NCBI RefSeq assembly: GCF_026967795.1 | Contig: NZ_JAPVBH010000002.1 | Span: 62,001-126,000 of the forward strand | Source: Modestobacter sp. VKM Ac-2986 | Lineage (GTDB): Bacteria > Actinomycetota > Actinomycetes > Mycobacteriales > Geodermatophilaceae | Length of the DNA: 64,000 nucleotides | Direction: 5' to 3' | The notes under the pieces: generated by a model | Told to the model about the DNA's origin: nothing | What the model saw: only the letters and a program-made list of their open reading frames with translations | The model's database searches: none | In this document: piece after piece, positions 33,519-55,743 of the stretch | Layout: every line of letters starts with the position of its first letter | Position numbering within the stretch: the first letter of the stretch is position 1 | Translations under genes and position numbers: made by a program

Positions 33519-33574
33519 GGCCCCTTCCCTCCCCGCCGCGAGCTCGCTCGTGGCAGGGAGGGAGGGGTCCTCGA
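33519..33574 (-). terminator. Post-stop stem-loop element, copy A (after pucR)
   Basis: The element starts 1 nt after the pucR TGA with CGAGGACCCC. The outer stem pairs GGCCCC-TTCCCTCCC with GGGAGGGA-GGGG-T-CC, with a single unpaired base (A in the RNA) in the 5' arm. The inner part CGCCGCGAGCTCGCTCGTGG forms a second hairpin. It shares this plan with copies at 38530, 52978 and 55684, with compensatory differences in the outer stem. Confidence 0.7.
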
Positions 33575-35551
33575 TCAGACGAGCGACTCGAGCCCGTCGT
33601 CCAGGACGGCGGCGGCGACGCTCTCCACCGGCGGGCGGTGCGGCTGGTCCAGGCCGCGGATCCGGGCGGCGTGCAGCGCGAGCAGCAGGTTCAACCGCAG
33701 CGTCGGGTCGGTGGTGAAGGGCCCGAGCATCCGCTCCAGCTTGCCGATCCGGTAGCGCATCGTGTTGTAGTGGAAGTGCAGCCGGCGCGCGGACTCCGCG
33801 ACGTTGAGGTTGGTCTCCAGCAGCACGCGCAGCGTGTCGCGCAGGTCGACGGAGTCCGGGTCGGTCGAGTCGGCCAGCGAGCCGAGCACCTCGTCGACGT
33901 AGGAGCGCAGCTCGGAGCTGTCCGGGATCAGCGACAGCAACCGGAAGACGCCCAGCTGGTCGAAGTGGGTGACCGCGTGCCCGCCGTGGATCTCCTGGCC
34001 GACGACCAGGGCGCGCTGGGCCTGCTGGTAGGCGTCGCCCAGCACCTGCAGCGACTCCGCCGGGCGGCCGATGCCGGTGCCCAGCAGCCGGCCGACCCGG
34101 CGCAACCGCGCGTTGACCCGGGCGGTGACCGCCGCTACCAGCCCGGAGAGCTCCTCGGGGGTGCGCCCGTCCAGCGGCAGCACGGTGACGATCTCGGTGG
34201 CCAGGCCCGCGACGGCGGCACCGGCGACCTCGCTGTCGACCGCGGACCGCCAGCCGTCGGCGAGCCGGTCGAGGACGTCGAGCGCGCGGGTCGGGTCCGC
34301 CCCGGCGTCGGCGACGGTCTCGGTGGCGGTCACCAGGACGACGACCGGGCCGTCCAGCCGCCAGCCGAAGGACCGCGCGTAGGCCAGCGCCCGCTCGGTG
34401 TGGGCGAAGGAGCCACCGACGAGCCGGCGCACCATGTCGCCCTGGAACCGCAGCTCCACGGAGTGGACCGCCTGCAGCCGGATCTCCGACAGTGCCGCGA
34501 TGACGGCGGCCTGCTCGAGCACCGCACCGGCGCCGAGCAGCATCGGCCCGTGCCGGTTCACCGCGACCAGCCAGCCGTGCCGCTGCTCGCCGGCCATGAT
34601 CGGGGCGACGGCGTACTCCCCCACCCCGCCGGGCAGCTCGTGGTGACCGGGCACCAGCAGGATGCCGTCGGCCGGGGACAGGTCGGCGTCGGCCAGGACG
34701 TCGGCGGGGGTGACCACGCTCTGGTCGGCGCGGTTGCCCGACAGCCTGCGGGCCGGGGTCAGGTCACCGAAGGCGTCGTCGGCGGCGGCGTCGAGCAGCC
34801 ACAGCCAGTCGCGGATCTCGGTGACCTCCTCCTGCGGGCCGGCGTCGGTGGCCACCTCGCGGTCCGGCCCGAGCCCCAGCACCGCCGCACCGGCCAGGAA
34901 GGTCGACACCTGGGTGGTCACCTCGGCCAGCCCACCGCCGGACAGCGCGACGTCGATGAACTGGTTGTGCATCCGGTTGGCGAGGCTGAGCGCCTGGGTC
35001 TGCTTGTCGATGATCGCGCCGAGCACCTCGGCGACGACCTCGTCCAGCCGGGTGGACGACGGCAGCGCGAGCACCGGGAACCCGCGCCGGTCGGCCTCGG
35101 CCAGCACCTCGGCGGGCACCTCGCCGGCGGCGTTGCCCTGCCCGCCCTCGGACCGGAAGGCCAGCGCGCCGCTGCCGGCGCGGTGCAGGCGCTCGATCAC
35201 CGCGCGGCTCTGCACGGCGTCACGGGAGCCCAGCCGGCCGGCGAGCACCACGAGCACGTCGGGGCCGGCGCTGCCGAGGGGGTCGTTGGGCTCCTCGACG
35301 ACGACGTGCCGCACGATGCGCCGAGTGCCGGTGGCACCGCCGACGACGATCGTCCCGGTGAGGCCCGGGAGGTCCAGGAGCTGGTCGACGGTGAGCCCCA
35401 TGCTGTCCTGCAGGGCGGTGCGGTCGGCCGGGGGCAGCTGCGAGAGCACCGGTTCCGCGGACGGCGGGACGCTGCTGAACGTAGCCGCCCGGTCGCTGTG
35501 TGCAACGTAAGTCACGGACGTCTCACGATCAGTCACTGTACGTACCCCCAA
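33575..35551 (-). CDS. PucR family transcriptional regulator
   Basis: The 658-residue regulator has an N-terminal PucR purine-catabolism-type domain (residues about 50-195; MGLTVDQLLDLPGLTGTIVV region), a central GGDEF-like CdaR region (about 360-520) and a C-terminal PucR helix-turn-helix (about 590-640, containing LNVAESARRLHFHYNTMRYRIG). Members control purine and allantoin use or related pathways in response to metabolites. Several starts are possible (ATG 35551, GTG 35536, GTG 35515). It is divergent from a DUF2877 gene across a 250-bp space that is the least GC-rich in the window and contains a palindrome. Confidence 0.88.
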   Translation of the reverse strand: MGVRTVTDRETSVTYVAHSDRAATFSSVPPSAEPVLSQLPPADRTALQDSMGLTVDQLLDLPGLTGTIVVGGATGTRRIVRHVVVEEPNDPLGSAGPDVLVVLAGRLGSRDAVQSRAVIERLHRAGSGALAFRSEGGQGNAAGEVPAEVLAEADRRGFPVLALPSSTRLDEVVAEVLGAIIDKQTQALSLANRMHNQFIDVALSGGGLAEVTTQVSTFLAGAAVLGLGPDREVATDAGPQEEVTEIRDWLWLLDAAADDAFGDLTPARRLSGNRADQSVVTPADVLADADLSPADGILLVPGHHELPGGVGEYAVAPIMAGEQRHGWLVAVNRHGPMLLGAGAVLEQAAVIAALSEIRLQAVHSVELRFQGDMVRRLVGGSFAHTERALAYARSFGWRLDGPVVVLVTATETVADAGADPTRALDVLDRLADGWRSAVDSEVAGAAVAGLATEIVTVLPLDGRTPEELSGLVAAVTARVNARLRRVGRLLGTGIGRPAESLQVLGDAYQQAQRALVVGQEIHGGHAVTHFDQLGVFRLLSLIPDSSELRSYVDEVLGSLADSTDPDSVDLRDTLRVLLETNLNVAESARRLHFHYNTMRYRIGKLERMLGPFTTDPTLRLNLLLALHAARIRGLDQPHRPPVESVAAAVLDDGLESLV

Positions 35552-35616
35552 AACGCCGTGTCACGAAGAACTCGGCGAGATTCTGTCAGACGTCTCTGGA
35601 CGCGCGAACCCACACT

Positions 35617-35631
35617 TGGCGAGAATCGCCA
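35617..35631. promoter_or_regulatory. Palindrome in the pucR/DUF2877 divergent region
   Basis: TGGCGA-GAA-TCGCCA is a perfect 6-bp dyad, and a half-match (GGCGAGATTCTG) lies at 35574-35585. Both lie in the relatively AT-rich space (about 35520-35690) between two divergent genes. A PucR binding site is plausible but unproven. Confidence 0.45.
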
Positions 35632-35801
35632 TACAGGTCTGAGGGACGCGCCACATACGTTCGTCCTTCCGACCTGTGTCCCGACCGGATGGTAGGCGGC
35701 CCCGCGCTCGAGGGGGTCGGTGCCGGCCGCCCGGGAGCACAGACCGGGACGGCAGTCGGCACATCGACCGCTGCCGGCGACCGCACGGGGGTGGAGGTCA
35801 G

Positions 35802-36905
35802 ATGCGCACGATCGACGAGAGCACCGGCGGGCAGGGCGACGCCGCGACCAGCGAGGACAGGGCCGGTACCGGCCCACGCCGTACCGCCGCACCACGATCG
35901 ACCGCGACGCGGGGCCTCGCCCCGTCCGAGGCCGGGCGTTCGGCGCCGGCGCCGGCGCCGCGCTCGGGACGCCCGGGCCGGGCTGCCCGTGCCGGCATGC
36001 CGACGCTGCACCTGTCCGGGGGTGCGTCGTCGGGTCTCGTGCCCGCGCCGCGTCCGTCGGTGCCGGCCCAGGCGAGCACCGGGGTGGCCGAGCTGCTCCG
36101 TGGCCCGCTGCGCCAGGGCACGGTGCTGCTGTCGGCGCCCACGGCGCTGTACGTCACCGTGCCGACGCCCTCCGGGCCCGAGGTGGTCGGCGTGCTGACC
36201 TCCGACGCCGCCCGGCTGCCGCTGGGCTGCATCCTGTTCCGCCCGTCCAACGGCCGCCCGCTGGTCTCCGCGCCCAGCGGCGCCCCGGCCGTCGTCGGTG
36301 GTGGCCGGCTCGTCGTCGGTGACCTCACGGTGAGCGCGGCCGCGTGGTGGGACCCGCGCCCCAAGCTGCCCACCGCCCGCCCGGCGCTGCTGCCCGAGGG
36401 CGTCCGTGAGCTGCGGGCCGCGCTCTACGGCGAGGGCGTCCCGCACAGCGCCTTCGTGCTGCCCGGGCTGGCCGGTGGCCCCAGCGGCCCGCTCGCCGCG
36501 CTGCGCGGAGCGGTCCGCCGCGCCGACCTGGACGCGGCGCTGCGCACCGCGACCCGGCTGATCGGCGAGGGCCCGGGCCTCACCCCGGTGGGCGACGACG
36601 TGCTGGCCGGCACCACCGCCGGCCTGGTGCTGCTGGGCCACCCGGCCGCCGAGCGTTTCGCCAGCGGGGTCACCGGCCTGGCCGCCGGGCGCACCACCGA
36701 GCTGTCCCGCGCCCTGCTGCGGCACGCCGCGGCCGGGCGGGTCACCGGGGAGTACGCCGCCGTGCTGCGCGCGATGGTCGGCGACGGTCCCCTGGTCCCG
36801 GCGATCCGGGCCCTGCTGAGCAGCGGCTCGACCAGTGGCCGGGCGCTGGCCCTGGGGCTGTGCACCGCGATCGACCTGGTCGAGCGGACCGGCCGGCCCC
36901 GCTGA
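35802..36905 (+). CDS. DUF2877 (AllH-like) domain-containing protein
   Basis: The 367-residue protein has a disordered, charged N-terminus (residues 1-75) and a DUF2877 domain (about 90-360) with the landmark GPGLTPVGDDVLAGTTAGLVLLG (about 260-282, given as region). DUF2877 corresponds to AllH, a subunit of the oxamate carbamoyltransferase of allantoin degradation in enteric bacteria. Here the partner genes allF and allG are not in view, so the role may differ. ATG 35802 has GGAGG upstream with 5-6 nt spacing. A divergent PucR regulator supports a link to purine or ureide metabolism. Confidence 0.82.
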   Translation: MRTIDESTGGQGDAATSEDRAGTGPRRTAAPRSTATRGLAPSEAGRSAPAPAPRSGRPGRAARAGMPTLHLSGGASSGLVPAPRPSVPAQASTGVAELLRGPLRQGTVLLSAPTALYVTVPTPSGPEVVGVLTSDAARLPLGCILFRPSNGRPLVSAPSGAPAVVGGGRLVVGDLTVSAAAWWDPRPKLPTARPALLPEGVRELRAALYGEGVPHSAFVLPGLAGGPSGPLAALRGAVRRADLDAALRTATRLIGEGPGLTPVGDDVLAGTTAGLVLLGHPAAERFASGVTGLAAGRTTELSRALLRHAAAGRVTGEYAAVLRAMVGDGPLVPAIRALLSSGSTSGRALALGLCTAIDLVERTGRPR

Positions 36906-36926
36906 GCCTCCCCGGTCCGGTCGGCG

Positions 36927-37391
36927 TCAGCCGGTCGGACCGGGCAGCAGCGCGCCGAGCCGGTCCCACTGGGCGATCCGGCACCCGTCGGTGCGGGAGA
37001 GCGCCAGGTCCACCGGCTCCCCCGCCCAGCGGCCGGTGACGCGTGCGGTCTGCGGGCCGCCGAACAGCTGGGTGCACATGGTGTCGGCCGGGAGTTCTGC
37101 GAAAGGGTCGGGCTGGCCGGTCAGCTGGGCGCAGGCCGCGGCCGGGTCGGGCAGGTCCCCGGTGGGCTGGTCGGCGCAGGACAGCCGGTAGGTCTGCGCG
37201 GCCTCGCCCTGTTCGGGCACCAGTTCGACGACCAGCTCGCCGTCGGCGGGCTCGCCGGAGGCGGCCGGGTCGCTCGGCACGGCCGCGGAGCTGGACGCCT
37301 GCGCGGACGCGGCTCCCGTCGTCGACGACCCGCCACAGGCGGTGAGCAGGACGGACGACAGCAGCAGGACCGGGACGGCGATGCGGCGCAT
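36927..37391 (-). CDS. Subtilisin inhibitor-like (SSI family) lipoprotein
   Basis: The 154-residue protein starts with a lipoprotein signal (VLLLSSVLLTAC, lipobox LTAC, lipidated Cys at about residue 19), then a serine-rich linker, then an SSI-like domain (about 48-154) with YRLSC, DPAAACAQL, ADTMCTQLFGGPQTARVTG and SRTDGCRIAQW. The four cysteines fit the two disulfides of Streptomyces subtilisin inhibitor. It would be anchored outside the cell and could restrain subtilases, for example the secreted S8 protease at 43760. ATG 37391 places the signal peptide at the N-terminus. Confidence 0.82.
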   Translation of the reverse strand: MRRIAVPVLLLSSVLLTACGGSSTTGAASAQASSSAAVPSDPAASGEPADGELVVELVPEQGEAAQTYRLSCADQPTGDLPDPAAACAQLTGQPDPFAELPADTMCTQLFGGPQTARVTGRWAGEPVDLALSRTDGCRIAQWDRLGALLPGPTG

Positions 37392-37552
37392 CCCCCCAGC
37401 ATGCCGCGTCCGGCACGCGGTCGGCCGAGACACGACCCGCACCGGGACGGCGCCGCCCCGAGGGAGGCACCGACGACGCCCCGCCGCCCGGTGGGCGGAG
37501 AGCTCCCCGTCGACGGGCTCACGACCGGCGCCAGGACCACGTGCGGAGACAG

Positions 37553-37586
37553 TCGAGCCCTGCCCCCAGGTGGGGGCAGGGCTCGA
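37553..37586. terminator. Intrinsic terminator downstream of hisG
   Basis: TCGAGCCCTGCCCCC (37553-37567) and GGGGGCAGGGCTCGA (37572-37586) form a perfect 15-bp stem with loop AGGT. It lies 56 bp past the hisG stop and closes the rib-his operon. The 160 bp between it and the SSI-type gene show no gene. Confidence 0.85.
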
Positions 37587-37641
37587 TGTCGCGGCGGACC
37601 ACCCGTGACGGTCGTCGGGACGACCGCAGCGGGCAGCGGCC

Positions 37642-38508
37642 TCAGATGCGGGAGGCGGCGATGCTGGTGACGAGGATGGCGCGGGCGCCGAGCTCGTAGA
37701 GGTCGTCCATGACCCGGTTGGTGTCGTCCTTGCCGACCATCGCGCGCACCGCCGACCAGCCGGGCGTGTGCAGCGGGCTGACCGTGGGGCCCTCGAGCCC
37801 GGGGGTGATCGCGGTGGCCCGGGCGAGCAGGTCGTTGGGGCAGTCGTAGTCGAGCATCACATACCGCCGGGCGACCAGCACACCCTGCAGCCGCCGGCGC
37901 AGCTGGGCCACGGCCGGGATCTCGTCGGCGCCCTCGCGGCGCACCAGCACGGCCTCGCTGGACAGCACCGGCTCGCCGATGATCCGCAGTCCGGCCGCCC
38001 GCAGCGTCGTCCCGGTCTCCACGACGTCGCAGACGGCGTCGGCGACACCGAGCCGGCAGGCGGTCTCGACCGCGCCGTCGAGCTTGACGACCTCGGCCTT
38101 CATGCCGGTGGAGTCCAGGAACCGCTGCAGCAGCCCCGGGTAGGCGGTGGCGATCCGCTTGCCCTCGAGCTGGGCCACCTCGTCGATGGCGGAGTCCGCG
38201 GGGCTGGCGAACCGGAAGGAGGACCGCCCGAAGCCCAGCGGCATGACCTCGGCCGCGACCGCCCCGGCGCCGTCGGTCGGGGTGGTCTCCAGCAGCATGT
38301 CGCGGCCGGTGATGCCGACGTCCAGCGTGCCGGCGGCGACGTAGATCGCGATGTCCCGCGGGCGCAGGTAGAAGAACTCGGTGTCGTTCTCCGGGTCGTA
38401 GACCGCGAGGTCCTTGAGGCTGCGCCGCTGCCGGTAGCCGCTCTCGGCGAGCATCGTCTGAGCGGGTTCGCTCAGGACGCCCTTGTTCGGGACGGCGACG
38501 CGCAGCAC
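37642..38508 (-). CDS. hisG: ATP phosphoribosyltransferase (long form)
   Basis: The 288-residue enzyme catalyses the first step of histidine synthesis, joining ATP and PRPP. Landmarks are LRVAVPNKGVLSEPA at the start, AAGTLDVGITGRDML, RIATAYPGL, the PRPP loop VCDVVETGTTLRAAGL (residues about 153-168) and the C-terminal HisG_C regulatory domain (about 205-285). The long form, without HisZ, is normal in actinobacteria and is feedback-inhibited by histidine. It follows hisE by 81 nt, a space filled by stem-loop copy B. Confidence 0.97.
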   Translation of the reverse strand: MLRVAVPNKGVLSEPAQTMLAESGYRQRRSLKDLAVYDPENDTEFFYLRPRDIAIYVAAGTLDVGITGRDMLLETTPTDGAGAVAAEVMPLGFGRSSFRFASPADSAIDEVAQLEGKRIATAYPGLLQRFLDSTGMKAEVVKLDGAVETACRLGVADAVCDVVETGTTLRAAGLRIIGEPVLSSEAVLVRREGADEIPAVAQLRRRLQGVLVARRYVMLDYDCPNDLLARATAITPGLEGPTVSPLHTPGWSAVRAMVGKDDTNRVMDDLYELGARAILVTSIAASRI

Positions 38509-38529
38509 AGCAGACTCCTCAGGTCGTTC

Positions 38530-38589
38530 GGCCCCGCTGCAGGGACCCGCCGCGAGCTTGCTCGTTGCGGGGGGCAGCGGGGTCCTCGT
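38530..38589 (-). terminator. Post-stop stem-loop element, copy B (between hisE and hisG)
   Basis: It starts 1 nt after the hisE TGA with CGAGGACCCC. The outer stem pairs GGCCCCGCTGC (38530-38540) with GCAGCGGGG-T-CC (38574-38585), with one unpaired base; the inner hairpin uses CGCCGCGAGCTTGCTCGTTGCGG. Because hisG continues the operon, this copy may tune read-through or protect the hisE end rather than end transcription. Confidence 0.7.
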
Positions 38590-40706
<2,117 letters not shown>

Positions 40707-40710
<4 letters not shown>

Positions 40711-41324
40711 CGACGTGCCCCCAGCAGCCGCTCGACGTACTTGGCGATGACGTCCACCTCCAGGTTGACCGGGCTGCCCGGGGTGCGGGCGCCCAGCGTG
40801 GTCTCGCGCAGCGTGGTGGGGATCAGGCTGACCTCGAACCACGGCTCGGGCTCGTCGGCCAGCGCGCTGACCGTCAGCGAGACCCCGTCGACGGTGATCG
40901 AGCCCTTCTCCACCACGTAGCGGGCCAGCTCCACCGGGACGGCGATGCGCACGACCTCCCACTGGTCGCCGGGCGTGCGCGACACGACGGTGCCGACGCC
41001 GTCGACGTGGCCCTGCACGATGTGCCCGCCCAGGCGGGTCTCGGCGGTGACGGCGCGCTCGAGGTTCACCGCGTCGCCGACGCCGGTGGCGCCCAGGCTG
41101 GACCGCCGCAGCGTCTCGGCCATGACGTCGGTGCTCCACACGCTGGTGCCGTCGGCGTCGCCCTGGACGCCGGTCACGGTCAGGCACACGCCGTTGACCG
41201 AGATCGAGTCGCCGAGGGCGACGCCGTCCAGGGTCTTGCGGGCCCGGATGCGCAGCACGGCGCTGTCCGCGCCGTCCTCACGCACCTCCAGGGTGCCGAG
41301 CTCTTCCACGATGCCGGTGAACAC
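40707..41324 (-). CDS. ribE: Riboflavin synthase, alpha chain
   Basis: The 205-residue protein has the two lumazine-binding barrels of riboflavin synthase: FTGIVEELG at the start, [16 protein letters not shown] in barrel 1, [12 protein letters not shown] at the junction and [15 protein letters not shown] in barrel 2. It dismutates two 6,7-dimethyl-8-ribityllumazine molecules. GTG 41324 is preferred because the family starts MFTGIVEE and GGAGGGAG precedes it. It starts 1 nt after the ribD stop. Confidence 0.96.
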
Positions 41325-41325
41325 G

Positions 41326-42378
41326 TCAGCTCCCTCCGCCGGTCGTCGGCCCACCAGTGTGCCGGGTGGGCCGCAGCCGGATCTGCACGTCCCCGCCCAG
41401 GCGGGTGACGTCGGTGATCGTCAGGTGCAGCGCACCGGTGATCGTGGCGATTCCCAGGCCGCCGACCATGGGTGCACCGTCACCCAGCAGCAGCGGCGCC
41501 TGGTGCAGCACCACCTCGTCGACGAGGCCCGCGGCGAGGAACGCCGCGGCCAGGGTGGGGCCGCCCTCCAGCAGCAGCCGGCGGACGCCGCGGTCGAACA
41601 GCTCGGCCAGCAGGGCAGCCGGGTCGGCGGCGCGGCTGACCACCGTGGCGGCCGCGTCGTCGTGCACCCGGGCGGTGGCCGGCACCCGGCCGCGCCGGTC
41701 CAGCACCACGCGCAGCGGCTGCCGGTCGGCGTTGCGGCCGTCGGCGTCGCGGACGGTGAGCTGGGGGTCGTCGGCCAGCACGGTGCCCGACCCGACCAGG
41801 ACCGCGTCGCAGGTGGCGCGCAGCCGGTGCACCTCGGCGCGGGCGGCCGGTCCGGTGATCCAGCGGCTGGTGGTGTCGGCGGCGGCGACCCGGCCGTCGA
41901 GGGTGGTGGCGACCTTCCACACGACCTGCGGGCGGTGCTCGCGCACCCCGGTCAGCCAGCCGGCCAGCGCGCCGTCCTCGGCGGCCTGCTGCTCGGCGCC
42001 CAGCTCGACGTCGACCCCGGCGGCGCGCAGCCGGGCGGCCCCGCCGACGGCCAGCGCGGTGGGCTCGGGGACGGCGACGACGACCCGGGCGATGCCGGCG
42101 GCGAGCAGCGCGTCGGCGCACGGCCCGGTGCGGCCGGTGTGCGCGCAGGGCTCGAGGGTGACCACCGCGGTGCCGCCGCGGGCGCGCTCGCCGGCCTGGG
42201 CGAGGGCGTGCACCTCGGCGTGCGGGCCGCCGACCGGTGAGGTGGCGCCCTCCCCGGCGACCGCGCCGTCGGCGTCGAGCACGACCGCGCCGACCGGCGG
42301 GTTCGGGCTGGTGGTGCCCAGCACCCGCTCCCCCAGCTCGCGGGCGCGGGCCATCGCCGCCTGCTCGACGGCGTTCAC
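41326..42378 (-). CDS. ribD: Bifunctional diaminohydroxyphosphoribosylaminopyrimidine deaminase / uracil reductase
   Basis: The 350-residue protein joins a deaminase (residues 1-145; [13 protein letters not shown], zinc ligands in [10 protein letters not shown] and [11 protein letters not shown]) to a reductase (about 150-345; [36 protein letters not shown]). It performs steps two and three of riboflavin synthesis. GTG 42378 overlaps the rpe stop (GTGA). No FMN riboswitch fits here, because there is no untranslated space. Confidence 0.96.
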
Positions 42379-43040
42379 CGGGCCGCGGCGGCCTTGGCCC
42401 GCAGCGCCCGGATCGCCGCGGCCGGGTCGTCGGCGCCGTAGACGGCCGAACCGGCGACGAAGACGTCGGCGCCGGCCGCTGCGGCCTGCTCGATGGTGTC
42501 GGCGTTGATCCCGCCGTCGACCTCGACGAAGAGCTGCAGGTGCCCGGTGTCGACGAGCCGGCGGGCCTCCTTCACCTTGCTCATCGTCTCGGCCATGAAC
42601 GACTGCCCACCGAAGCCGGGCTCGACGGTCATCACCAGCAGGGTGTCGAAGTCCGGCAGCACGTCGAGGTAGGCCTCCAGCGGCGTCCCCGGCTTGATCG
42701 CCAGCCCGGCCAGCGCACCGGCGGCCCGCAGGTCGCGGGCGACGGCGCGCGGGTCGGTGCAGGCCTCGGCGTGCACCGTGACGTTGCGGGCACCGGCCTC
42801 GGCGTACCCGGGGGCCCAGCGCTCGGGGTCGGTGATCATCAGGTGGCAGTCCAGCGGCACCGGGCTCACCGCCTGGATGGCCTGCACGACCGGCAGGCCC
42901 AGGGTCAGGTTGGGCACGAAGTGGGCGTCCATGACGTCGACGTGCACCCAGTCGGCGTCGGTGATCCGCTGCACCTCGTCGGCGAGCCGGGCGAAGTCGG
43001 CGGACAGCAGACTGGGCGCGATCATCGGTTCCTGTGCCAC
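42375..43040 (-). CDS. rpe: Ribulose-phosphate 3-epimerase
   Basis: The 221-residue TIM-barrel enzyme interconverts ribulose 5-phosphate, the riboflavin precursor, and xylulose 5-phosphate. Landmarks are [27 protein letters not shown] (metal ligands), [24 protein letters not shown] and [15 protein letters not shown] 43040 is chosen: TACGAT lies 6 nt upstream, suggesting a leaderless start and the head of the rib-his operon. ATG 43025 is an alternative. Confidence 0.95.
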
Positions 43041-45302: not shown

Positions 45303-45307
45303 TGCGT

Positions 45308-45700: not shown

Positions 45701-45764
45701 GACGGGCAGGGTCCCCAACGGCCGTGCCCACGTCCAGCGCGATCGGACCTGCCAGGATCCGCGC

Positions 45765-46421: not shown

Positions 46422-46439
46422 GCCCCGCACGGCCGGCGC

Positions 46440-46631: not shown

Positions 46632-46699
46632 CGCGTGTGCCCGGTCCGCGGCGGACACGGGCACCCGCAACAGGCTGACCGGCCGGGCGCCGGGTGCCC

Positions 46700-48115
46700 T
46701 CAGCGGGTGCGGCGGAGCAGGGCCAGGAACATCGCGTCGGTGCCGTGCCGGTGCGGCCACAGCTGCCCGTAGTCGCCCCGGGCGATGCCCGGCACCTCGG
46801 GGAACAGCGGCGCGATCGGCAGCACCTCGACGTCGTCGCGCCCGGCCACCGCGTCGACGATGGCGACCGTCTCCGCGGTGTGCGGCGAGCAGGTCACGTA
46901 GGCGACCACTCCCCCGGGCCGGACCGAGGCCAGCGCGCTGTCCAGCAGCCGGGTCTGCAGCTCGGCCAGCGGTGCGACGTCCTCCGCGGTGCGGCGCCAG
47001 CGCACCTCGGGACGGCGGCGCAGCGCCCCCAGCCCGGTGCAGGGTGCGTCGAGCAGCACCCGGTCGAAGGAGCCGGCCGGCCAGTCGGGCGCGGTGGCGT
47101 CGGTGACCCGCACGTCGACGTCGTCCTCCCCGGCCAGCGCGCCGCGCACCAGCTCGGCCCGGTGCTCGGCGCGGTCGGCGGCGGTCAGGTGCACCCCGGC
47201 CGGGCGGACGGCGGCCAGCAGCCCGGCCTTGCCGCCAGGGCCGGCGCACATGTCCAGCCAGGCGGCGTCCGGGCCCTCGAGCGGGGCGCGGGTCAGGGCG
47301 AGCGCGGCCAGCTGGCTGCCCTCGTCCTGCACCGCGGCCGCACCGGACCGCACACTGCGCACCTTGCCGGGGTCTCCCCCGCCCAGCCGGACGGCGTAGG
47401 GCGACCACGGGCCGGCCTCACCGCCGGACTCGGCGACCAGCGCGTCGCGGTCGACGTGCCGGGCCACCAGGTGCACCTCCGGCGCCAGGTCGTCGGCCAG
47501 CAGCGCGGCCTCGACCTCGGTGTCCTCGCCCAGGGCGTCGCGCCAGGCGTCGACGATCCAGCGCGGGTGGTCGGTGCTCAGCGCGAGCCGGTCGGCGTCC
47601 TCGGCGGGGGCCAGTGCGGCCACCCACGCCGCCCGGTCACCGCCGGCCGCGACCTTGCGCAGCACCGCGTTGACCAGGCCGGAGGCCCCGGTGCCCACGA
47701 TCGCCCGGGTGAGCGCGACGGTGGTGTCGACGGCCGCGTGCGCGGGGACCCGCAGGTCGACGATCTGGTACGTGCCCAGCCGCAGCAGGTCGAGCACCTT
47801 GCGGTCCAGCTCGGCCAGCGGCCGGGAGACCAGCGTGGTCAGGACCGCGTCCAGCGTGCCGGTCGCGCGCAGCGTGCCGTAGGCCAGCTGGGTGGCGAAG
47901 GCGGCGTCGCGCGGTTCGAGCTGGCGCTCGCGCAGCAGCTGGGGCAGCAGCAGGTTGGCGTAGGCGTCGCGGCTGGAGACGCCGTCGAGCACGTCGTAGG
48001 CGGTCAGCCGGGCGCCGTCCAGCACCGGCCGGTGCCGCCGGGACTGCGGGCGCTGGTTGCCGGTGCCCGGGTCGTTGCGCCGCTTGTGACCGGCCCGCCG
48101 GTCGGGGGCGGTCAT
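46700..48115 (-). CDS. rsmB: 16S rRNA (cytosine967-C5)-methyltransferase RsmB
   Basis: The 471-residue protein has an N-terminal NusB-like domain (residues about 35-170; [15 protein letters not shown]) and a Fmu methyltransferase domain with SAM motif [13 protein letters not shown], the RNA m5C motif [15 protein letters not shown], and the catalytic cysteine in YVTCSPH (Cys409). It methylates helix 31 region C967 (E. coli numbering) of 16S rRNA. ATG 48115 overlaps the fmt stop. A lysine/arginine-rich N-terminal 30 residues is usual in actinobacteria. Confidence 0.96.
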
Positions 48116-49053
48116 GCTCCCCCCTGCTCGCCGAGGCGCTCGCCGGCTACGAGCCGGGCGCCGCGCGCCCAGTCCGCCGCGGGGAGCACCTTCTTGCCGG
48201 CCGGCTGCACCTCGGTGAGCCGGACGGCGCCGCGCGCGGTGCCCACCAGCACGCCGGTGGGACCGACCGACAGCTCACCGGCCTCCAGGGCCAGCGAGGA
48301 CTGCAGCGGCTCGACCGGGGCCAGCCGCAGCCGGTTGCCCCGGAAGGTGGTCCAGGCGCCCGGCGCCGGGGTGACCCCGCGGACCCGCCGGTCGACCACG
48401 TGCGCCGGCAGCGCCCAGTCGACCCGGGCGTCCTCGGTCTGGATCCGCGGCGCCAGGCTGATGCCCTCGGCCGGCTGCGGCTCGGCCCGGAGCGAGCCGT
48501 CGGCGATGCCGTCGAGGGTCGCCACGAGCAGCCCGGCGCCGTTCACGGCCAGCCGGCCGAGCAGGTCCCCGGCGGTGTCGCGGGGACCGATCGGCTCGGT
48601 CACCACGCCGAACACCGGGCCGGTGTCCAGGCCCGCCTCCAGCTGGAAGGTGGCCGCACCGGTGACCTCGTCACCGGCCATGAGCGCGTGCTGCACGGGG
48701 GCGGCACCGCGCCAGGCCGGCAGCAGGGAGAAGTGCAGGTTGACCCAGCCGTGCACCGGGACGTCGAGGGCCGCGGGCGGCACGAGCGCGCCGTAGGCGA
48801 CCACCGGCGCGCAGTCGACGGCCAGCTCGCGCAGGGTGTCCAGGAACTCCGGCTCGCGGGGCGAGCGGGGCTGCAGCACCGGGATGCCGGCGGCGTCGGC
48901 CCGCTCGGCGACCGGGGACCGGCTGGTGCGCCGTCCCCGCCCGGCCGGGGCGTCGGGGCGGGTGAGGACGGCGACGACCTCGTGCGTGGAGCCCAGCAGC
49001 GCCTCCAGGGAGGTGACCGCCGGGGCCGGGGTGCCGGCGAACAAGAGCCTCAG
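48112..49053 (-). CDS. fmt: Methionyl-tRNA formyltransferase, apparent CTG start
   Basis: The 313-residue enzyme formylates initiator Met-tRNA. Landmarks are [19 protein letters not shown] at the N-terminus, [31 protein letters not shown] (residues about 103-121) and [13 protein letters not shown]. The family begins MRLLFAGTP; the matching codons are CTG AGG CTC, and no ATG, GTG or nearer upstream start lies in frame within the short space. The CTG at 49051-49053 overlaps the def TGA (CTGA), the same 4-nt coupling seen throughout this operon. A TTG three codons further in is a poor alternative. Confidence 0.93.
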
Positions 49054-49607
49054 TGGGGGCTCACCTTCACGACGGGGACCGGCAGCGGCGAGCCCTCGGG
49101 CAGCCAGGACGGGTGCCCCTGCCACTCGGCGGCCTGCAGGACGTCCAGGGCGGCGGCGCGCGCCTCGGTGTCGAGCCGGTCGACGAACAGGACGCCGTCG
49201 AGGTGGTCGGTCTCGTGCTGGATGGCCCGGGCCAGCTTGTGCGAGCCCTCCACGCGCAGCGGCTCGCCGTACATGTCCCAGCCGGTGGCCGCGACGGTCA
49301 GGTAGCGGTCGCAGTCGAACCGGTACCCGGGGATCGACAGGCAGCCCTCGGCGTCCCGCTCGACGTCCTCGCCCACGGGGACGACGTCGGGGTTGACGAT
49401 GTGGCCGACCTCGCCGTCGACATACCAGGTGAAGACCCGCAGGCCGACGCCGATCTGGGGCGCGGCGAGGCCGGCGCCACCGGCGGCGTGCATGGTGTCG
49501 GTCAGGTCGGCGACGAGCTGCTGCAGCTCCTTGTCGAAGTCGACGACGGGGGCGGCCGGGGTGCGCAGCACCGGGTCGCCCATGATCCGGATCGGGGTGA
49601 CGCTCAC
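49050..49607 (-). CDS. def: Peptide deformylase
   Basis: The 185-residue metalloenzyme removes the N-formyl group from nascent proteins. All three motifs are present: [11 protein letters not shown] (residues about 44-54), EGCLSIPG (about 87-94, metal Cys) and QHETDHLDG (about 129-137, metal His pair and catalytic Glu). The C-terminal extension ([13 protein letters not shown]) is usual in actinobacteria. GTG 49607 has TAGACT 6 nt upstream and no ribosome binding site, so it probably starts a leaderless def-fmt-rsmB message. Confidence 0.97.
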
Positions 49608-49669
49608 CGGGTGAGTCTAGGCGGCGCCCAGGACGCCGGGAGCGCGGTTCCCTCGCTACCGTGCTGAGG

Positions 49670-50167
49670 ATGACCCCGGTGACCTCCCACCACGCCCGCG
49701 CCGTCGTCGGCAGCGCCGCCGACGGACTGGTCCTCGCCCTCTGCGGCGCCCTGCTGGACCACCCCGCCCGCTCGGCGGCCCGCCGCCGGCTGTACCTCGC
49801 CATGGCCGGGGTCGCCGCCGTCGACGTCGGCGTCGCCGAGCTGCCGGCGCTGCGGGCGGCGCTGGTCGACGGCGTGCCCCCGGAGCAGATGTCGTCGGAG
49901 GAGCTGGCGGTGCGGCTGCGGCAGGGAGTCGTCGTCGGCGCGTGGGGGCTGGTCCTGACGGTGGTCGACGGCCCGCTGGCCCGCGCGCTGCGCGCCCGCG
50001 GGGTCGACCGTCCGCACCTGCTGCTGGGTGCCGTGGCCGGGCTGGGCGCGGCACTGAGCACGCTGCCCAGCTGGTGGCGCCAGGCCGACGAGCTCGCCGC
50101 GGTCGACCGGGCCACCGCCCGGCTGGACGAGGAGCTCGCGGAGCTGCTCGACCAGCCGGCCGGCTGA
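49670..50167 (+). CDS. Hypothetical protein
   Basis: The 165-residue protein is alanine-, leucine- and arginine-rich, with two or three moderately hydrophobic segments (about 12-30, 38-55 and 80-98) and an acidic helical end ([19 protein letters not shown]). I recognise no family. ATG 49670 is preferred because TACCGT lies exactly 7 nt upstream (leaderless pattern). It is divergent from def and convergent with the next gene, 8 bp apart. Confidence 0.65.
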
Positions 50168-50175
50168 CCTGCCGG

Positions 50176-50859
50176 TCAGCTGCTGAGCTGCACCGTGCTG
50201 CGGTCGGCCTCGACGTGCTGGGCCTGCGTGGCCAGCTGGGCCGCGCCCTCGGCGTCGTCCACGCCGACCGTGGCCGGGAACTGGCCGTCGTGGGCGGTGA
50301 CGGTGCCGGTGAAGTCGACCCGGTCACCCTGACGCACCTGGTACGGCGACTCACCGGCGGCACCGGCGAGCTGGACCCACACGCGCTGGGCGTCGGAGCT
50401 GCCGACCCAGAAGCCCTCGTCGGCGGGGACGGAGAGCACCTGCACGGCGGTTGCGGTGACCTGCTGGCCGGCGACCTGCCCCAGCACCGGGGCCGGGTCC
50501 GCCGGGGCCGCGGGGTCCAGGACGGCGGTGCCGTCGGCGGCGACGAGGCTGCTCGGCTGCCCGGCCGCGGCCCCACCGGCCGCACCGCCACCGGCCGAGC
50601 TGGTGGCGCTGGGTGAGGAGCTGGCACTGGACGACGGGCTGGCCGAGGCCGAGGACGACGAGCTGCTGGGGCTGCTGGACGCGCCGGCGGCACCCGGCTG
50701 GGGGTCGTCGTCGCCACCGCACTGGCTGAGCAGCAGCAACAGCGCGATCACCGCGGCGGCGAGGGCCAGGGCGAGCCACAGGCCCTTCCGCTTCTTCTGC
50801 GGGCCGACGCTGGTGGCGCCGCGGGTGGTGCCGGCGGCGGGCTGACGGGGGTCGGTCAT
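50176..50859 (-). CDS. Hypothetical membrane-anchored protein with serine-rich linker
   Basis: The 227-residue protein has a basic N-terminus (QKKRKG), one transmembrane helix (about 27-45, LWLALALAAAVIALLLLLSQC), a long Ser/Ala/Pro linker (about 52-100) and an extracellular beta-rich domain (about 105-225) with VSVPADEGFWVGSSDAQRVWVQL-like strands (region 143-165) and GDRVDFTGTVTAHDGQF. The last part recalls an OB-like fold. No signal cleavage site is evident, so it is probably anchored. ATG 50859 follows AGGAGC. Confidence 0.72.
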   Translation of the reverse strand: MTDPRQPAAGTTRGATSVGPQKKRKGLWLALALAAAVIALLLLLSQCGGDDDPQPGAAGASSSPSSSSSSASASPSSSASSSPSATSSAGGGAAGGAAAGQPSSLVAADGTAVLDPAAPADPAPVLGQVAGQQVTATAVQVLSVPADEGFWVGSSDAQRVWVQLAGAAGESPYQVRQGDRVDFTGTVTAHDGQFPATVGVDDAEGAAQLATQAQHVEADRSTVQLSS

Positions 50860-50994
50860 GGGTGCTCCTGACGTGAGGACGCCGCCCGGCAGTGGACCGG
50901 GCGGCGCGAGGGGACCCGGCGGTCCGGAGCCCAGACCGCCAGCCGTCCCCCGCTACCCGGCGCGTTCACGACGTGAACTGCGCAGGTCGGCGGC

Positions 50995-53025
50995 TCAGGC
51001 CAGCTCGAGCGGGTCCAGCTGCACGCGCACGTGCTCGGGCACCTTCCGCGCGCTGCGCACCCCCTGCACGTCGTGCAGCGCCCGGGCCAGCGCGACGCCC
51101 TCGCTGCGCCGGATCCGCACCAGGTACCGCTCCCGCTCGCCCTCCTGCCCCGGCCGCGGCGGCTCCGGGACCGGCCCCAGGACGTCGGCGCCCTCGGGCA
51201 GCCGCAGGGCGGCCAGGAACTCCGCCAGCGCGGCCGGGGACGCCGACAGCGAGGCCATCCGGGTGACCGGCGGGAAGCCGAGCTCGCGGCGGTCGGCGAG
51301 CTCACGGGTGGCCAGCCCGGCCGGGTCCCAGCGCACCAGCGCCTGTACGACCGGGTGCGCGGCGTCGGCGGACACCACGACCCGCCCGCCGGCCTGCACG
51401 AGCGCCGCGGCGTTCATCCAGCGCCGCATCGTCTCCTCCCCCGCCCGCAGGTCCGCCCGGCCCAGCAGCGCCCAGGAGTCCAGCAGCAGGGCGGCGCCGT
51501 AGCCGCCCTCGGCGACCGGCTCGGCCCCGGGGGTGGCGACGACGATCGCCGGGTCGCCGGGGACGGTGGCCAGCACGCCGGAGCTGCGGCCGGACACCCG
51601 CACCGCCGCCCCGGGGAACGCCCGGCCCAGCTCCTCGGCCGTGCGGGAGGCCCCGATGACGGCGGCGCGCAGCTTGGTGCCGTGGCAGTGCGGGCAGTCG
51701 AACGTGGCCGCCGGCCGCGCGCACCACCGGCAGGCGGCGATGCGGACCCCGTTCGGCCCGGGCGAGGGGGCGATGCCCAGCGGCCCGGCACAGTGCGCGC
51801 ACCGCGCCGGGGCGCGGCAGCGGTCGCAGACCAGCGAGGGCACGTAGCCCGAGCGGGGCACCTGGATCAGCACCGGCCGGCCGGCCTGCAGGGCCTTGCG
51901 GGCGACGTCGAAGCCGAGGGTGGGCAGCCGGGCGGAGCGTGCCGCGGGGTCGCGGGCCAGCTCGAAGTCGCTGCCCAGCGCCTCGACCCGCGGCGCGGCC
52001 GTGCGCAGCGTGGCGCGGTCGGCGACCAGCTCGTGCGCCCAGCCGGACTCCACCAGCAGCGCGGCCTCGGCGGTGCGCGCGGTGGCGGCGACGACCGCGG
52101 CGCAGGAGGCCAGGTGCGCCCGGTGCACCAGCACGTCGCGGGCGTGCGGGTAGGGGGCGCGGGGCTCGGCGTGCAGGTCGTCACCGTCGTCCCAGATGAC
52201 CACCAGGCCCAGGTCGCGCACCGGGGCGAACACCGCCCCGCGGGTGCCCAGCACCACCTGGGCGGTGCCGCGGGAGGCGGTGAGGAACCGGCCGTAGCGG
52301 GTGTCGGGCGTGGAGTCGGCGCGCAGCACGGCGACCGAGCCGGCCGGCAGCAGCCGCTCGGCCGCGGCGGCCAGCCGGTCGAGGTCCTTGCCGTCGGGGA
52401 CCACGACGAGGGCACCCCGCCCGCCGGACAGCGCCGCCTGGCACAGCTCGACCAGCCGGGTCGGCCAGTCCTCCCCCGGCAGCGCCGTCCACACCGCGCG
52501 GGCCGGGTGCCCCTGGGCGACGGCCTCCAGCAGCAGCGGCCCGGTCGGGTAGCGGGCGAACCCGGCCGGGTCCGGCGCCGACGGGGGCGGCGGCGGGTCC
52601 TGCCGGGGCCGCTTCTCCGGCGCGCCCCGGCGGGGCGGCAGCGCCAGCCGCAGGACGTCGGTCATGGAGCCTGCGTAGCGGTCGGCGACCGAGCGGGTCA
52701 GCTCGGCGACCTCGGGGGTGAGCACCGGCTCGGGCGAGACGACCTTGGCCAGCGGGGCCAGCTTGCCGGTGTGGTCGGTGCTCCCGGCGAGCTCGACGAC
52801 CACGCCGTCGACGAGCTTGCCGGCGAACCGCACGCGCACCCGGCAGCCGGCCACGACCTGCTCGGCCAGCTCCTCGGGCACCGCGTAGTCGAAGGGCCGG
52901 TCCAGGTGGGCCAGCGGCACATCGACGACGACCCGGGCCACCCGCTGTGCGCGGGTGCCCGGGTCACCGACTGTCTCGGCCCCCTTGGAGGGGCCCGCCA
53001 CGAGCGTGCGAGTGGTGGGGGGCAA
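50995..53025 (-). CDS. priA: Primosomal protein N' (PriA), actinobacterial type
   Basis: The protein of up to 676 residues has the PriA N-terminal DNA-binding domain (VARVVVDVPLAHLDRPFDYAVPE), two zinc-binding clusters (CDRCRAPARCAHC and CRWCARPAATFDCPHC) and the C-terminal SPEPPRPGQ-like region. The helicase lobe is degenerate: no Walker A GxGKT is visible, as is known for actinobacterial PriA, so it likely acts in replication restart without helicase activity. The start is uncertain. TTG 53025 has GAAGGA 6 nt upstream but lies inside a stem-loop element. GTG 53001 or GTG 52941 (next to VARVVVDVP) are alternatives. Confidence 0.9.
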   Translation of the reverse strand: MPPTTRTLVAGPSKGAETVGDPGTRAQRVARVVVDVPLAHLDRPFDYAVPEELAEQVVAGCRVRVRFAGKLVDGVVVELAGSTDHTGKLAPLAKVVSPEPVLTPEVAELTRSVADRYAGSMTDVLRLALPPRRGAPEKRPRQDPPPPPSAPDPAGFARYPTGPLLLEAVAQGHPARAVWTALPGEDWPTRLVELCQAALSGGRGALVVVPDGKDLDRLAAAAERLLPAGSVAVLRADSTPDTRYGRFLTASRGTAQVVLGTRGAVFAPVRDLGLVVIWDDGDDLHAEPRAPYPHARDVLVHRAHLASCAAVVAATARTAEAALLVESGWAHELVADRATLRTAAPRVEALGSDFELARDPAARSARLPTLGFDVARKALQAGRPVLIQVPRSGYVPSLVCDRCRAPARCAHCAGPLGIAPSPGPNGVRIAACRWCARPAATFDCPHCHGTKLRAAVIGASRTAEELGRAFPGAAVRVSGRSSGVLATVPGDPAIVVATPGAEPVAEGGYGAALLLDSWALLGRADLRAGEETMRRWMNAAALVQAGGRVVVSADAAHPVVQALVRWDPAGLATRELADRRELGFPPVTRMASLSASPAALAEFLAALRLPEGADVLGPVPEPPRPGQEGERERYLVRIRRSEGVALARALHDVQGVRSARKVPEHVRVQLDPLELA

Positions 53026-53037
53026 GTGGGTCCTTCG
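52978..53037 (-). terminator. Post-stop stem-loop element, copy C (between metK and priA)
   Basis: It begins directly after the metK TGA with CGAAGGACCC. The outer stem pairs GG-CCCCCTTG (52978-52987) with CAAGTGGG-T-CC (53023-53033); the inner hairpin includes CGCCACGAGCGTGCGAGTGG. It overlaps the region where priA translation could start, so folding here might affect priA expression. Confidence 0.7.
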
Positions 53038-54261
53038 TCAGACGCCCGTGGCCGCGCGGAGGGCGTCGACGCGGTCCAGCCGCTCCCAGGGCAGCTCGAT
53101 GTCGGTGCGCCCGAAGTGGCCGTAGGCGGCGGTGGGGCCGTAGATCGGGCGGAGCAGGTCCAGGTCGCGGACGATCGCGCCCGGGCGCAGGTCGAACACC
53201 GAGGTGATCGCCTTCTCCAGCACGTCCTCCGGGACGGCGTTGGTGCCGAAGGTCTCCACGAACAGGCCGACCGGGTGCGCGGCGCCGATCGCGTAGGCCA
53301 CCTGCACCTCGCAGCGTCGCGCCAGGCCCGCGGCGACGACGTTCTTGGCCACCCAGCGCATCGCGTAGGCACCGGAGCGGTCGACCTTCGACGGGTCCTT
53401 GCCGGAGAAGGCGCCGCCACCGTGCCGGGCCATGCCGCCGTAGGTGTCGACGATGATCTTGCGGCCGGTGAGCCCGGCGTCGCCCATCGGGCCGCCGATG
53501 ACGAACTTGCCGGTGGGGTTGACCAGCAGCCGGTGGCCGGTGGTGGGCAGCCCGAGCTCGGCGAGCGCGGGGACGACCACCAGCTCCTCGATGTCGGGGG
53601 CCAGCAGCGTGTCGATGGAGATGTCCTCGGCGTGCTGGGAGGACACGACCACGGTGTCCACGGCGACCGGGCGGTCGTCCTCGTAGACGACGGTGACCTG
53701 GGTCTTGCCGTCGGGCCGCAGGTAGGGCACCGAGCCGTCCTTGCGCACCGCGGACAGCCGGCGGGACAACCGGTGCGCCAGCGCGATGGGCAGCGGCATC
53801 AGCTCGGGGGTCTCGTCGCTGGCGTAGCCGAACATCAGGCCCTGGTCGCCGGCGCCCTGGCGCTCGATCATGTCGTCGGCCACCGCGGCGCGGTGCTCGG
53901 CGCCGCTGAGCTCGGCCCGGCGGGCCTCGTAGGCGGTGTCCACGCCCTGGGCGATGTCCGGGGACTGCGCGCCGATGGAGACGCTGACCCCGCACGAGGC
54001 GCCGTCGAAGCCCTTGCGCGAGGAGTCGTAACCGATCCGCAGGATCGTCCTGCGGACGATCTCGGCGATGTCGACGTAGCCGGAGGTGGTCACCTCACCG
54101 GCGATGTGCACCTGACCGGTGGTGATCATCGTCTCGACGGCCACCCGGCTACGGGGGTCCTGGGCGAGCATCTCGTCGAGGATCGCGTCGCTGATCTGGT
54201 CGGCGATCTTGTCCGGGTGGCCCTCGGTCACCGACTCGGACGTGAAGAGGCGGCGTGACAC
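53038..54261 (-). CDS. metK: S-adenosylmethionine synthetase
   Basis: The 407-residue enzyme makes SAM from methionine and ATP. Landmarks are [17 protein letters not shown] (residues about 6-22), [12 protein letters not shown] (about 136-147), [16 protein letters not shown] (about 280-295) and [11 protein letters not shown]. The GTG start is preceded by AGGGAG. The 126-bp upstream space shows no recognisable SAM riboswitch. It is followed by stem-loop copy C and priA. Confidence 0.97.
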
Positions 54262-54387
54262 TGGGTTCTCCCTGCAGTCGGCTGCCGAGCGCGTGCATCG
54301 CGGTCGGGAGGGCCTCCGGCGATGGTCGGGACCCTGGCGGTGCGAGGGTACCGGCGGGTGCCGACAGCCGTCGTCGGCGGCAGTCGG

Positions 54388-55608
54388 TCAGCCCCGCGGA
54401 GGGAGCCCGGCCACCACCCGGTCCCAGATGGCGGCGGCCACGACGTCCTTGCCCGCGGCGGGGACGGCGGTGGCCGTGCCGTCGGCGTCCAGCAGCGTCA
54501 CCTCGTTGTCCGCGCGGCCGAACACCCGCCCGGCGGAGACGTCGTTGACCACCAGCAGGTCGACGCCCTTGCGGGCCAGCTTCGCGCGGGCGTGGGTGAG
54601 CACGTCGCCCTCGTCGTCCCCGGTCTCGGCGGCGAAGCCGACCACCCGCTGACCGGCCGGGCGGGCGGCGACCAGCTCGACCAGGACGTCGGGGTTGCGC
54701 ACCAGCTGGACGGAGTCCGGTTCGCCGGCGCTGCCCTTCTTCAGCTTGGTGCCGGCGACGGTGACCGGCCGGAAGTCCGCGACGGCGGCGGCCATCACCA
54801 CGACGTCGGCGCCGGCGGCCTCGGCGTGCACGGCGGTGCGCAGCTGCTCGGTCGACTCCACCGGGACGACGCGGACGCCGAAGGGCGCCGGGGCCTCGAC
54901 GTTGGCCGCGACCAGGACGACGTCGGCACCCCGGGCGGCGGCGACCCGGGCCAGCGCCCAGCCCTGCTTCCCCGAGGACCGGTTGCCCAGGAAGCGGACC
55001 GGGTCCAGCGCCTCGCGGGTGCCCCCGGCGCTGATCACGACCCGGCGGCCGGTGAGGTCCTGGGCCAGCGCACCCGGGCCGGCGGCGAGCACCAGCTCGG
55101 CGAGGGCGGCGACGTCGGCGGGCTCGGGCAGCCGCCCGGGCCCGGAGTCCGGGCCGGTGAGCCGGCCGACGGCCGGGGGCAGCACGACCGACCCGCGCCG
55201 GCGCAGCGTGGCCACGTTGTCCTGGGTGGCCGGGTGCAGCCACATCTCGGTGTGCATGGCCGGCACGAACACGACGGGTGCGTGCGCGGCGAGCAGCGTG
55301 GCGGTGAGCAGGTCGTCGGCCCGGCCGGCGGCGGCGCGGGCGAGCAGGTCGGCGGTGGCCGGGTTGACCAGCACCAGGTCCGCGGTCTGCCCGATGCGCA
55401 CGTGGGCGACCTCGGGGACGTCGTCCCACACCTCGGTGGAGACCGGGTTGCCGCTGAGCGCCTCGAAGGTCGCGGCGCCGACGAACCGCAGCGCCGAGGC
55501 GGTCGGGACGACGCGCACGTCGTGGCCGCGCTCGGTGAGGGCCCGCAGCAGCAGGGCGGACTTGTAGGCCGCGACGCCGCCACCGACGCCCAGCACGATC
55601 CGGCTCAT
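54388..55608 (-). CDS. coaBC: Bifunctional phosphopantothenoylcysteine decarboxylase / phosphopantothenate-cysteine ligase
   Basis: The 406-residue fusion has a flavoprotein CoaC domain (residues 1-180; VGGGVAAYKSALLLRAL, ADLVLVNPATADLLAR, VPAMHTEMW) and a CoaB ligase domain (about 185-400; VISAGGTREALDPVRFLGNRSSGKQG as region, VAAAVADFRP, VNDVSAG). It carries out two steps of coenzyme A synthesis. ATG 55608 follows GAGGATGAGGGC. It lies downstream of rpoZ, separated by two stem-loops. Confidence 0.97.
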   Translation of the reverse strand: MSRIVLGVGGGVAAYKSALLLRALTERGHDVRVVPTASALRFVGAATFEALSGNPVSTEVWDDVPEVAHVRIGQTADLVLVNPATADLLARAAAGRADDLLTATLLAAHAPVVFVPAMHTEMWLHPATQDNVATLRRRGSVVLPPAVGRLTGPDSGPGRLPEPADVAALAELVLAAGPGALAQDLTGRRVVISAGGTREALDPVRFLGNRSSGKQGWALARVAAARGADVVLVAANVEAPAPFGVRVVPVESTEQLRTAVHAEAAGADVVVMAAAVADFRPVTVAGTKLKKGSAGEPDSVQLVRNPDVLVELVAARPAGQRVVGFAAETGDDEGDVLTHARAKLARKGVDLLVVNDVSAGRVFGRADNEVTLLDADGTATAVPAAGKDVVAAAIWDRVVAGLPPRG

Positions 55609-55633
55609 GCCCTCATCCTCCGCCAGACACGAC

Positions 55634-55664
55634 GAAGTCCCCGGCACCAGGTGCCGGGGACTTC
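55634..55664. terminator. Perfect hairpin upstream of coaBC
   Basis: GAAGTCCCCGGCACC (55634-55648) and GGTGCCGGGGACTTC (55650-55664) are exact complements around one base, giving a 13-bp stem with a small loop. It lies between rpoZ and coaBC, after stem-loop copy D, and probably ends the gmk-rpoZ message or attenuates read-through. Confidence 0.8.
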
Positions 55665-55683
55665 ATCTGTGCGAGTGACGTTC

Positions 55684-55743
55684 GGCCCCCTCGCAGGGGC
55701 CCGCCGCGAGCGTGCGAGCGGTGGGGGGCGAGGGGGTCCTTCG
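55684..55743 (-). terminator. Post-stop stem-loop element, copy D (after rpoZ)
   Basis: It starts directly after the rpoZ TGA with CGAAGGACCCCC. The outer stem pairs GGCCCCCTCGC (55684-55694) with GCGAGGGGG-T-CC (55728-55739), again with a single unpaired base; the inner hairpin uses CGCCGCGAGCGTGCGAGCGG. The pairs differ from copies A-C while the structure is preserved. Confidence 0.75.

Follow-up and report, generated by a model that had tools for sequence, protein, structure and literature searches.

The four hairpins in the window

A 64,000-nt stretch of contig NZ_JAPVBH010000002.1 from Modestobacter sp. VKM Ac-2986 (genome size 4.19 Mb), referred to as the window throughout, carries four copies of a hairpin element on its minus strand, each placed directly behind the stop codon of a gene. 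The genes next to the copies, named from their Pfam domains, encode PucR, HisE, HisG, MetK, PriA, RpoZ and CoaBC, the last of which is a 96% match to the CoaBC protein of Modestobacter muralis. We propose that the element is a mobile palindrome comparable to the repetitive extragenic palindromes (REPs) and the mycobacterial interspersed repetitive units (MIRUs) but with the stop codon as its address, a reading to which we give a probability of roughly 55%. The four copies and their neighbours are listed below, with scores from a covariance model (R1) built from these copies themselves.

33517..33573, minus strand: copy A, behind pucR, 1 nt after the stop TGA (33575-33577); 64.6 bits
33575..35449, minus strand: gene of a pucR-type regulator (Pfam HTH_30, PucR, GGDEF_2), whose stop precedes copy A
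38528..38588, minus strand: copy B, between hisE and hisG; 83.2 bits; the called hisG start lies 19 nt past the element
38590..38853, minus strand: hisE (Pfam PRA-PH), whose stop precedes copy B
52976..53037, minus strand: copy C, between metK and priA; 80.9 bits
53038..54261, minus strand: metK (Pfam S-AdoMet synthetase domains), whose stop precedes copy C
55629..55670, minus strand: a separate terminator-like hairpin, recognized from its sequence, between copy D and coaBC
55682..55743, minus strand: copy D, immediately 3′ of the rpoZ stop; 81.7 bits
55744..56007, minus strand: rpoZ (Pfam RNA_pol_Rpb6), whose stop precedes copy D

Read on the minus strand, every copy consists of the stop, 0-1 nt, CGA[AG]GGACC, a long GC stem with an unpaired A, an inner hairpin and GGCC. 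The original prediction had placed four such hairpins 0-1 nt past the stops of pucR, hisE, metK and rpoZ; all of them are present there, and the unpaired A claimed for the 5′ arm was found in 4/4 copies. Its further statement that the outer stem changes in a paired way holds for the much larger set of 143 matches described below; pairing is imperfect in the metK copy, whose outer stem contains one A.G and one C.C mismatch. The site of copy A is empty in all five relatives compared. The called start of priA (53001) lies inside copy C, and a close relative, genome G020, has no element at that site; the insertion of copy C may thus have changed the N-terminus of PriA in Modestobacter sp. VKM Ac-2986.

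A large family with covarying stems

The four hairpins belong to a family that is dispersed over the genome. The head motif CGARGGACCCC occurs 50 times, compared to 6 times for the reversed control, and running R1 on the genome, a check that the original prediction had proposed, yielded at least 150 matches (E 5.4e-13 to 2.6e-3). A second R1 search of 100 fetched loci gave 143 matches, and merging the two results in 165 unique copies, a lower bound in which partial tandem units are counted. Both the excess of the head motif and the number of model matches are far beyond chance. In a 464-kb stretch of G020, picked by synteny and independently of the copies, we found 21 matches, corresponding by scaling to ~190 per genome.

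The element is ~60 nt long and has the consensus GA-N-GAAGG-A-CCCC-[variable arm]-GCCCCCCACCNCTCGCRNGCTCGNGGCGGGNCCCTGC-[variable arm′]-GGGGCC. Conservation extends to its loop, inner stem and unpaired A, while the outer arm is free to vary in sequence but keeps its pairing. Over the 143 matches 94.4% of the cells are paired and the covariation reaches 0.299, as opposed to 0.109 ± 0.005 in shuffled alignments and at most 0.092 when the pairings are slid. A second model (R2), built from these 143 matches, was then applied to 70 matches from other species that had no part in its construction: 94.7% of the cells are paired and the covariation is 0.350 (0.112 ± 0.007 in the shuffles, at most 0.075 in slid pairings). 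Alignment to R2 biases these sequences toward its structure, but the slid controls are without signal. The covariation claimed in the original prediction is therefore true in the own genome and in other species, above all controls.

No Rfam family reached its gathering threshold in the window; near copy D the sole matches were far under the gathering scores and none was centred on the element. Tandem partial units corresponding to model positions 9-55 follow a full copy at C1:577135-577352 (locus L021), with a period of 54 and each lacking the GGACC head; such units also occur in loci L119, L026 and L096.

Position relative to the stop codon

Placement behind stop codons is the most constant property of the family. 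With genes predicted by a codon-usage caller for which the window served as training set, 133 of the 165 copies prove to be in coding orientation and to have their model start between -6 and +9 nt from a stop on the same strand. For 8/165 the midpoint falls inside a called gene, and 5 of these 8 lie -3 to 7 nt past a called stop as well. Among the other 24 are odd copies and partial tandem units. The same holds in G020, where 18 of 21 copies are direct and at most 15 nt from a stop, and in the named loci of the family, where this is true for 49/70 while 6 more are found solely inverted against a stop. The fixed placement at stops noted in the original prediction is thus borne out, and the outcomes it had named as adverse (no further copies, random positions, absence of covariation) did not come up.

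The exact register of the element depends on which stop codon it follows. It could be read in 128 of the 133 stop-adjacent copies, 5 without a readable GG position being left out. Behind TGA the stem starts at offset 4 in 81 of 107 copies. Behind TAG (n = 20) it starts at offset 5 in 10 copies, at 2 in 8, at -1 and at 1 in one copy each, and never at offset 4 (TGA versus TAG, p 6e-11); a single copy follows TAA. The 5 readable TAG copies from other species are likewise at offset 5 or 2. In the simplest reading, joining of the conserved 5′ end GA(NGA)AGG would create TGA from a T and TAG from a TA. A junction inside the stop codon fits better than a distance to the ribosome maintained by selection, because the register depends on the type of stop. 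Stop usage at the copies (112 TGA, 20 TAG, 1 TAA) is near the background (313, 29 and 1, respectively), and filled and empty orthologs of rpoZ and of hisE end at the same residue; therefore the element brings no new gene end. At element sites the stop type has switched in 3 of 16 cases compared to 3 of 64 (p 0.09; sites with a moved stop, 1 and 2, respectively, left out).

We also considered a DNA target motif 5′ of the stop, given that C precedes TGA in 103 of 112 copies versus 216 of 313 background stops. This excess was set aside since it fits a depletion of ATGA/GTGA overlaps, and the base before TAG shows no bias (9 C and 10 G of 20 at element sites, 13 and 16 of 29 in the background). 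Inverted copies occur behind the rpoZ stop in loci L189, L195, L209, L217 and L198; four of the five abut the stop and one is 16 nt away. Two of the inverted copies, those of L195 and L209, have a TAG stop in which TA is completed by the first base of GGCC, as though the other end of the element obeyed the same junction rule.

Distribution and turnover between species

The element has so far been seen solely in Geodermatophilaceae. A search with R2, in which at most the best 92 candidates per genome were counted under stricter filters, detected it in 32 of 35 genomes of this family and in none of 24 genomes from other families of the order; of the three family genomes without any match, two are at least 94% complete. 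In 80 named loci around coaBC, all 70 matches fall in the 58 loci that CoaBC identity assigns to Geodermatophilaceae or close kin, and none in the other 22. A scan of 396 genomes of the phylum, with the best 13 candidates per genome scored, returned our genome as the sole match. There was no match in viral contigs (pattern search), plasmids or phages, and no description of the element was found in the open-licence literature of PubMed Central (PMC).

Within the family, occupancy changes rapidly. Twenty of the copies in our genome have an orthologous site in the G020 stretch, where the adjoining genes are 80-98%, mostly >90%, identical in DNA, and only 5 of these sites are filled there; 3 of 23 sites had no ortholog in the stretch and were left out, and the anchoring of two compared sites (48787, 305097) is poor. 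Of the 15 unfilled sites, at least three contain remnants (448078, 305097, 257784), which keep the outer stem only, one (360342) holds an inverted copy next to the convergent gene, and others are plain. On a quick tree of the 58 coaBC sequences, in which 17 of 55 inner branches are weak, the rpoZ site (29 loci filled in direct orientation, 5 inverted, 24 empty) requires at least 15 changes of state and the metK site (17/58 filled) at least 16. Between hisE and hisG, 18 of the 30 genomes taken as the best of 51 matching ones are filled, at most 9 nt behind the stop, with one copy degenerate. The gap measures 81-113 nt with the element and 11-43 nt without it, except for one 79-nt gap holding another repeat.

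The junction between the genes for DAHP synthase and GntG aldolase gives the clearest indication of polarity. Among 20 Modestobacter genomes (one of 21 loci, without the upstream gene, was left out), 12 have a TGATG overlap without insert whereas in three the same TGA is followed by the element and by a start further on. Of the rest, G020 has GTGA, two carry another repeat and two are otherwise different. The element was likely gained into this coupled gene pair, and the GTGA of G020 may represent a later deletion between TGAC repeats. In general, overlapping pairs are mostly avoided, and only 2 of 344 codirectional gaps shorter than 10 nt are filled. Occupancy is uneven: 29-50% at rpoZ and metK but 5/863 at the other stops of the same loci, a difference that is partly due to ascertainment since the loci were chosen around filled sites.

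Mobile palindrome or selected RNA element

The original interpretation stands as far as it describes a structured, covarying element fixed at stops and present in tight gene pairs; what is not supported is the conclusion that it is not a plain mobile repeat. That part is weakened by the sharing of only 5 of 20 sites with a close relative, by inverted rpoZ copies in five species, by the stop-dependent register and by the copy that splits a TGATG pair. Fast turnover, remnants, inverted copies and tandem units all suggest a passenger. In a more specific and more tentative version, the family would be mobile without a RAYT (REP-associated tyrosine transposase), its address would be the stop codon itself (TGA or TAG), entered mostly in coding orientation with the junction in the codon and the stop rebuilt, and the 3′ ends of mRNAs and the coupling of genes would have been reshaped throughout the family.

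According to this scheme, some enzyme would move the element, perhaps as a folded single strand, and the 5′ end GA(NGA)AGG, once joined to the leading T (for TGA) or TA (for TAG) of the codon, would restore a working stop. The space behind stops may simply be the place where the element does the least harm. Once inserted, the hairpin would lie under or just ahead of the terminating ribosome and would be expected to slow termination, to weaken coupling with the following gene and to protect the 3′ end of the mRNA. A brake on termination appears a fair inference because our element is mostly found at 0-5 nt and the REPs of E. coli are reported to reduce translation if a stop lies within 15 nt (PMC12306157, citing earlier work). 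Such a side effect might be selected at hot sites like rpoZ, hisE and metK, and selection may keep the element there.

Several observations weigh against a mobile palindrome. No mobilising enzyme was identified, the RAYT being absent from our genome and from 54 genomes of the family. A target duplication of constant form was not found: 16 copies are followed by TGA, and 10 of these lead into a second unit. None of 144 cores is identical to another, the nearest pairs differing by 1 of ~56 nt, which excludes a very recent burst. The uneven occupancy (29-50% versus 5/863) is more readily explained by selection or hot spots than by insertion at random, and the clean paired changes between orthologous copies suggest upkeep.

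The strongest rival, though one that we regard as unlikely, is that the element is mainly a selected RNA structure of the 3′ UTR (untranslated region), spread by some means and kept because it works. The hairpin would form as the ribosome leaves the stop and set the mRNA 3′ end, protect the stop codon against 3′ exonucleases or uncouple the next gene. Strong covariation in our genome and in the matches from other species, the conserved loop, inner stem and unpaired A, the coding orientation and the repeated occupation of the same sites across the family are all in its favour, as is the comparison of our rpoZ core with that of M. muralis, which differ by a single C-G to G-C swap. Covariation alone cannot separate selection on the RNA from upkeep of a DNA palindrome. 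It is also difficult to reconcile a selected RNA with the lack of a full copy at 15 of 20 sites in a close relative, where remnants persist at some of them, with a register that tracks the type of stop and not the distance, with inverted copies at the same stop and with three family genomes devoid of any match. The two readings overlap.

Transcription termination and palindrome debris

Intrinsic terminators of actinobacteria that lack a U-tract consist of a GC hairpin close behind genes. A GC-rich hairpin directly 3′ of genes could be a terminator or attenuator of this type, and 60 of the 133 copies next to a stop are flanked by convergent genes. This share is close to the window background (24/63), however, and in the first 10 nt behind the hairpin T accounts for 128 of 1220 positions (10.5%; 122 copies), without enrichment. 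The element further differs from terminators without a U-tract by its conserved primary sequence, its places inside tight pairs and its patchy occupancy. A codirectional start is called at most 40 nt away for 22 copies, the genes being named for 17, and in at least nine named pairs this start (called, hence putative) is -26 to 32 nt from the end of the element:

metK-priA: -26 nt
folP-folB: -2 nt
ftsZ-pgeF: 0 nt
DAHP synthase - aldolase: 13 nt
cofD-cofE: 14 nt
hisE-hisG: 19 nt
mdh-icd: 20 nt
ilvB-ilvN: 27 nt
nusG-rplK: 32 nt

Termination is disfavoured because copies sit within tight pairs such as folP-folB, ilvB-ilvN, nusG-rplK and hisE-hisG. One copy (L110:1023-1157), between a stop codon and a tRNA-Val gene, ends 1 nt from the tRNA, and the rpoZ-coaBC gap has its own terminator-like hairpin 3′ of the element, found at the same place in relatives with a readable gap whether the element is present or absent. 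We therefore reject intrinsic termination as the main role and consider a terminator or attenuator without U-tract highly improbable. The placement of copies inside operons, as noted in the original prediction, is supported in that the element is found between tightly spaced codirectional genes. The attenuation it suggested is without support here, while a role in mRNA end formation or re-initiation is possible.

Equally improbable is a reading of the copies as inert remains of palindromes, in which template-switch correction of the DNA, and neither function nor a transposase, would maintain the pairing: outer arms that change in both halves while the rest of the copy is constant and remnants that retain only the outer stem would fit, but the placement at stops and the conserved unpaired loop and bulge would go unexplained. 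Correction of palindromes during replication could nevertheless keep the stems paired and, as an addition, is compatible with a mobile palindrome.

Comparison with known repeats

The element resembles REPs in being a dispersed, high-copy, extragenic GC palindrome behind genes. REPs of the GTAG type often supply the TAG stop of flanking open reading frames (ORFs), as described in PMC3733652. In contrast to the GTAG or CGTC tag of REPs named in the title of that paper, the foot of our element is GA-N-GAAGG-A-CC; the element is also ~60 nt long with a conserved inner hairpin. Furthermore, ~80% of its copies are locked to stops, compared to ~11% of E. coli REPs at 15 nt or less in the RepRanger paper (PMC12306157). 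A REP driven by a RAYT was rejected since we found no Y1 (PF01797) transposase gene in our genome or in any of the 54 family genomes at E 0.001, with a search that was positive in 5-6 of 14 control genomes and that could miss a strongly diverged gene.

MIRUs occur as tandem units. In the same order of bacteria they are described, in PMC12548453, as short repeats at stop/start junctions of gene pairs that are thought to be mobile and contain a small ORF with coupling to the gene that follows. Our element, compared with MIRUs by description only, has tandem units and copies within gene pairs, but it forms a stable hairpin, and some copies are followed by a new start of their own (DAHP synthase - GntG aldolase). 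An insertion of the MIRU kind is likely at this one junction, but overlapping pairs are mostly avoided, the proportion of short codirectional gaps filled being 2/344.

Other repeats share these sites. A different short repeat with the core GCTCCGCTGGGG..CCGG is present at the same stops in L322 and L327 (DAHP synthase - GntG aldolase) and in L173 and L179 (rpoZ). In L322 it opens with TGATGGACACA, holds a small ORF and looks MIRU-like; a count in six genomes gave one match, the pattern probably being too strict. A further repeat, GCCGCAGGCTCCGG..ACACACCGGAGGTGCG, lies in the rpoZ-coaBC gap of L176 (two copies) and L179 (one copy), and the 79-nt hisE-hisG gap of L262 is made of three near-copies of ACCTGCA[AG]GACC in place of the hairpin. 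Outside our genome, many copies are followed by a 3′ tail GGCCGTTCCA(G/T)C...TCAC, seen at rpoZ, hisE and metK in other genera (e.g. L168, L170, L246, L250); from this tail, a longer form of the element may exist.

Significance

With 18 direct copies for 412 called genes in the 464 kb of G020, a stable RNA structure lies within a few bases of ~4% of the stops. The mobile palindrome that we favour raises the question of which enzyme finds stop codons in DNA, given that the RAYT, the best-known mover of palindromes, was not found. Empty and filled sites in close species provide a natural experiment on termination, coupling and mRNA ends. If our reading is true, the element would constitute a large family of dispersed hairpins.

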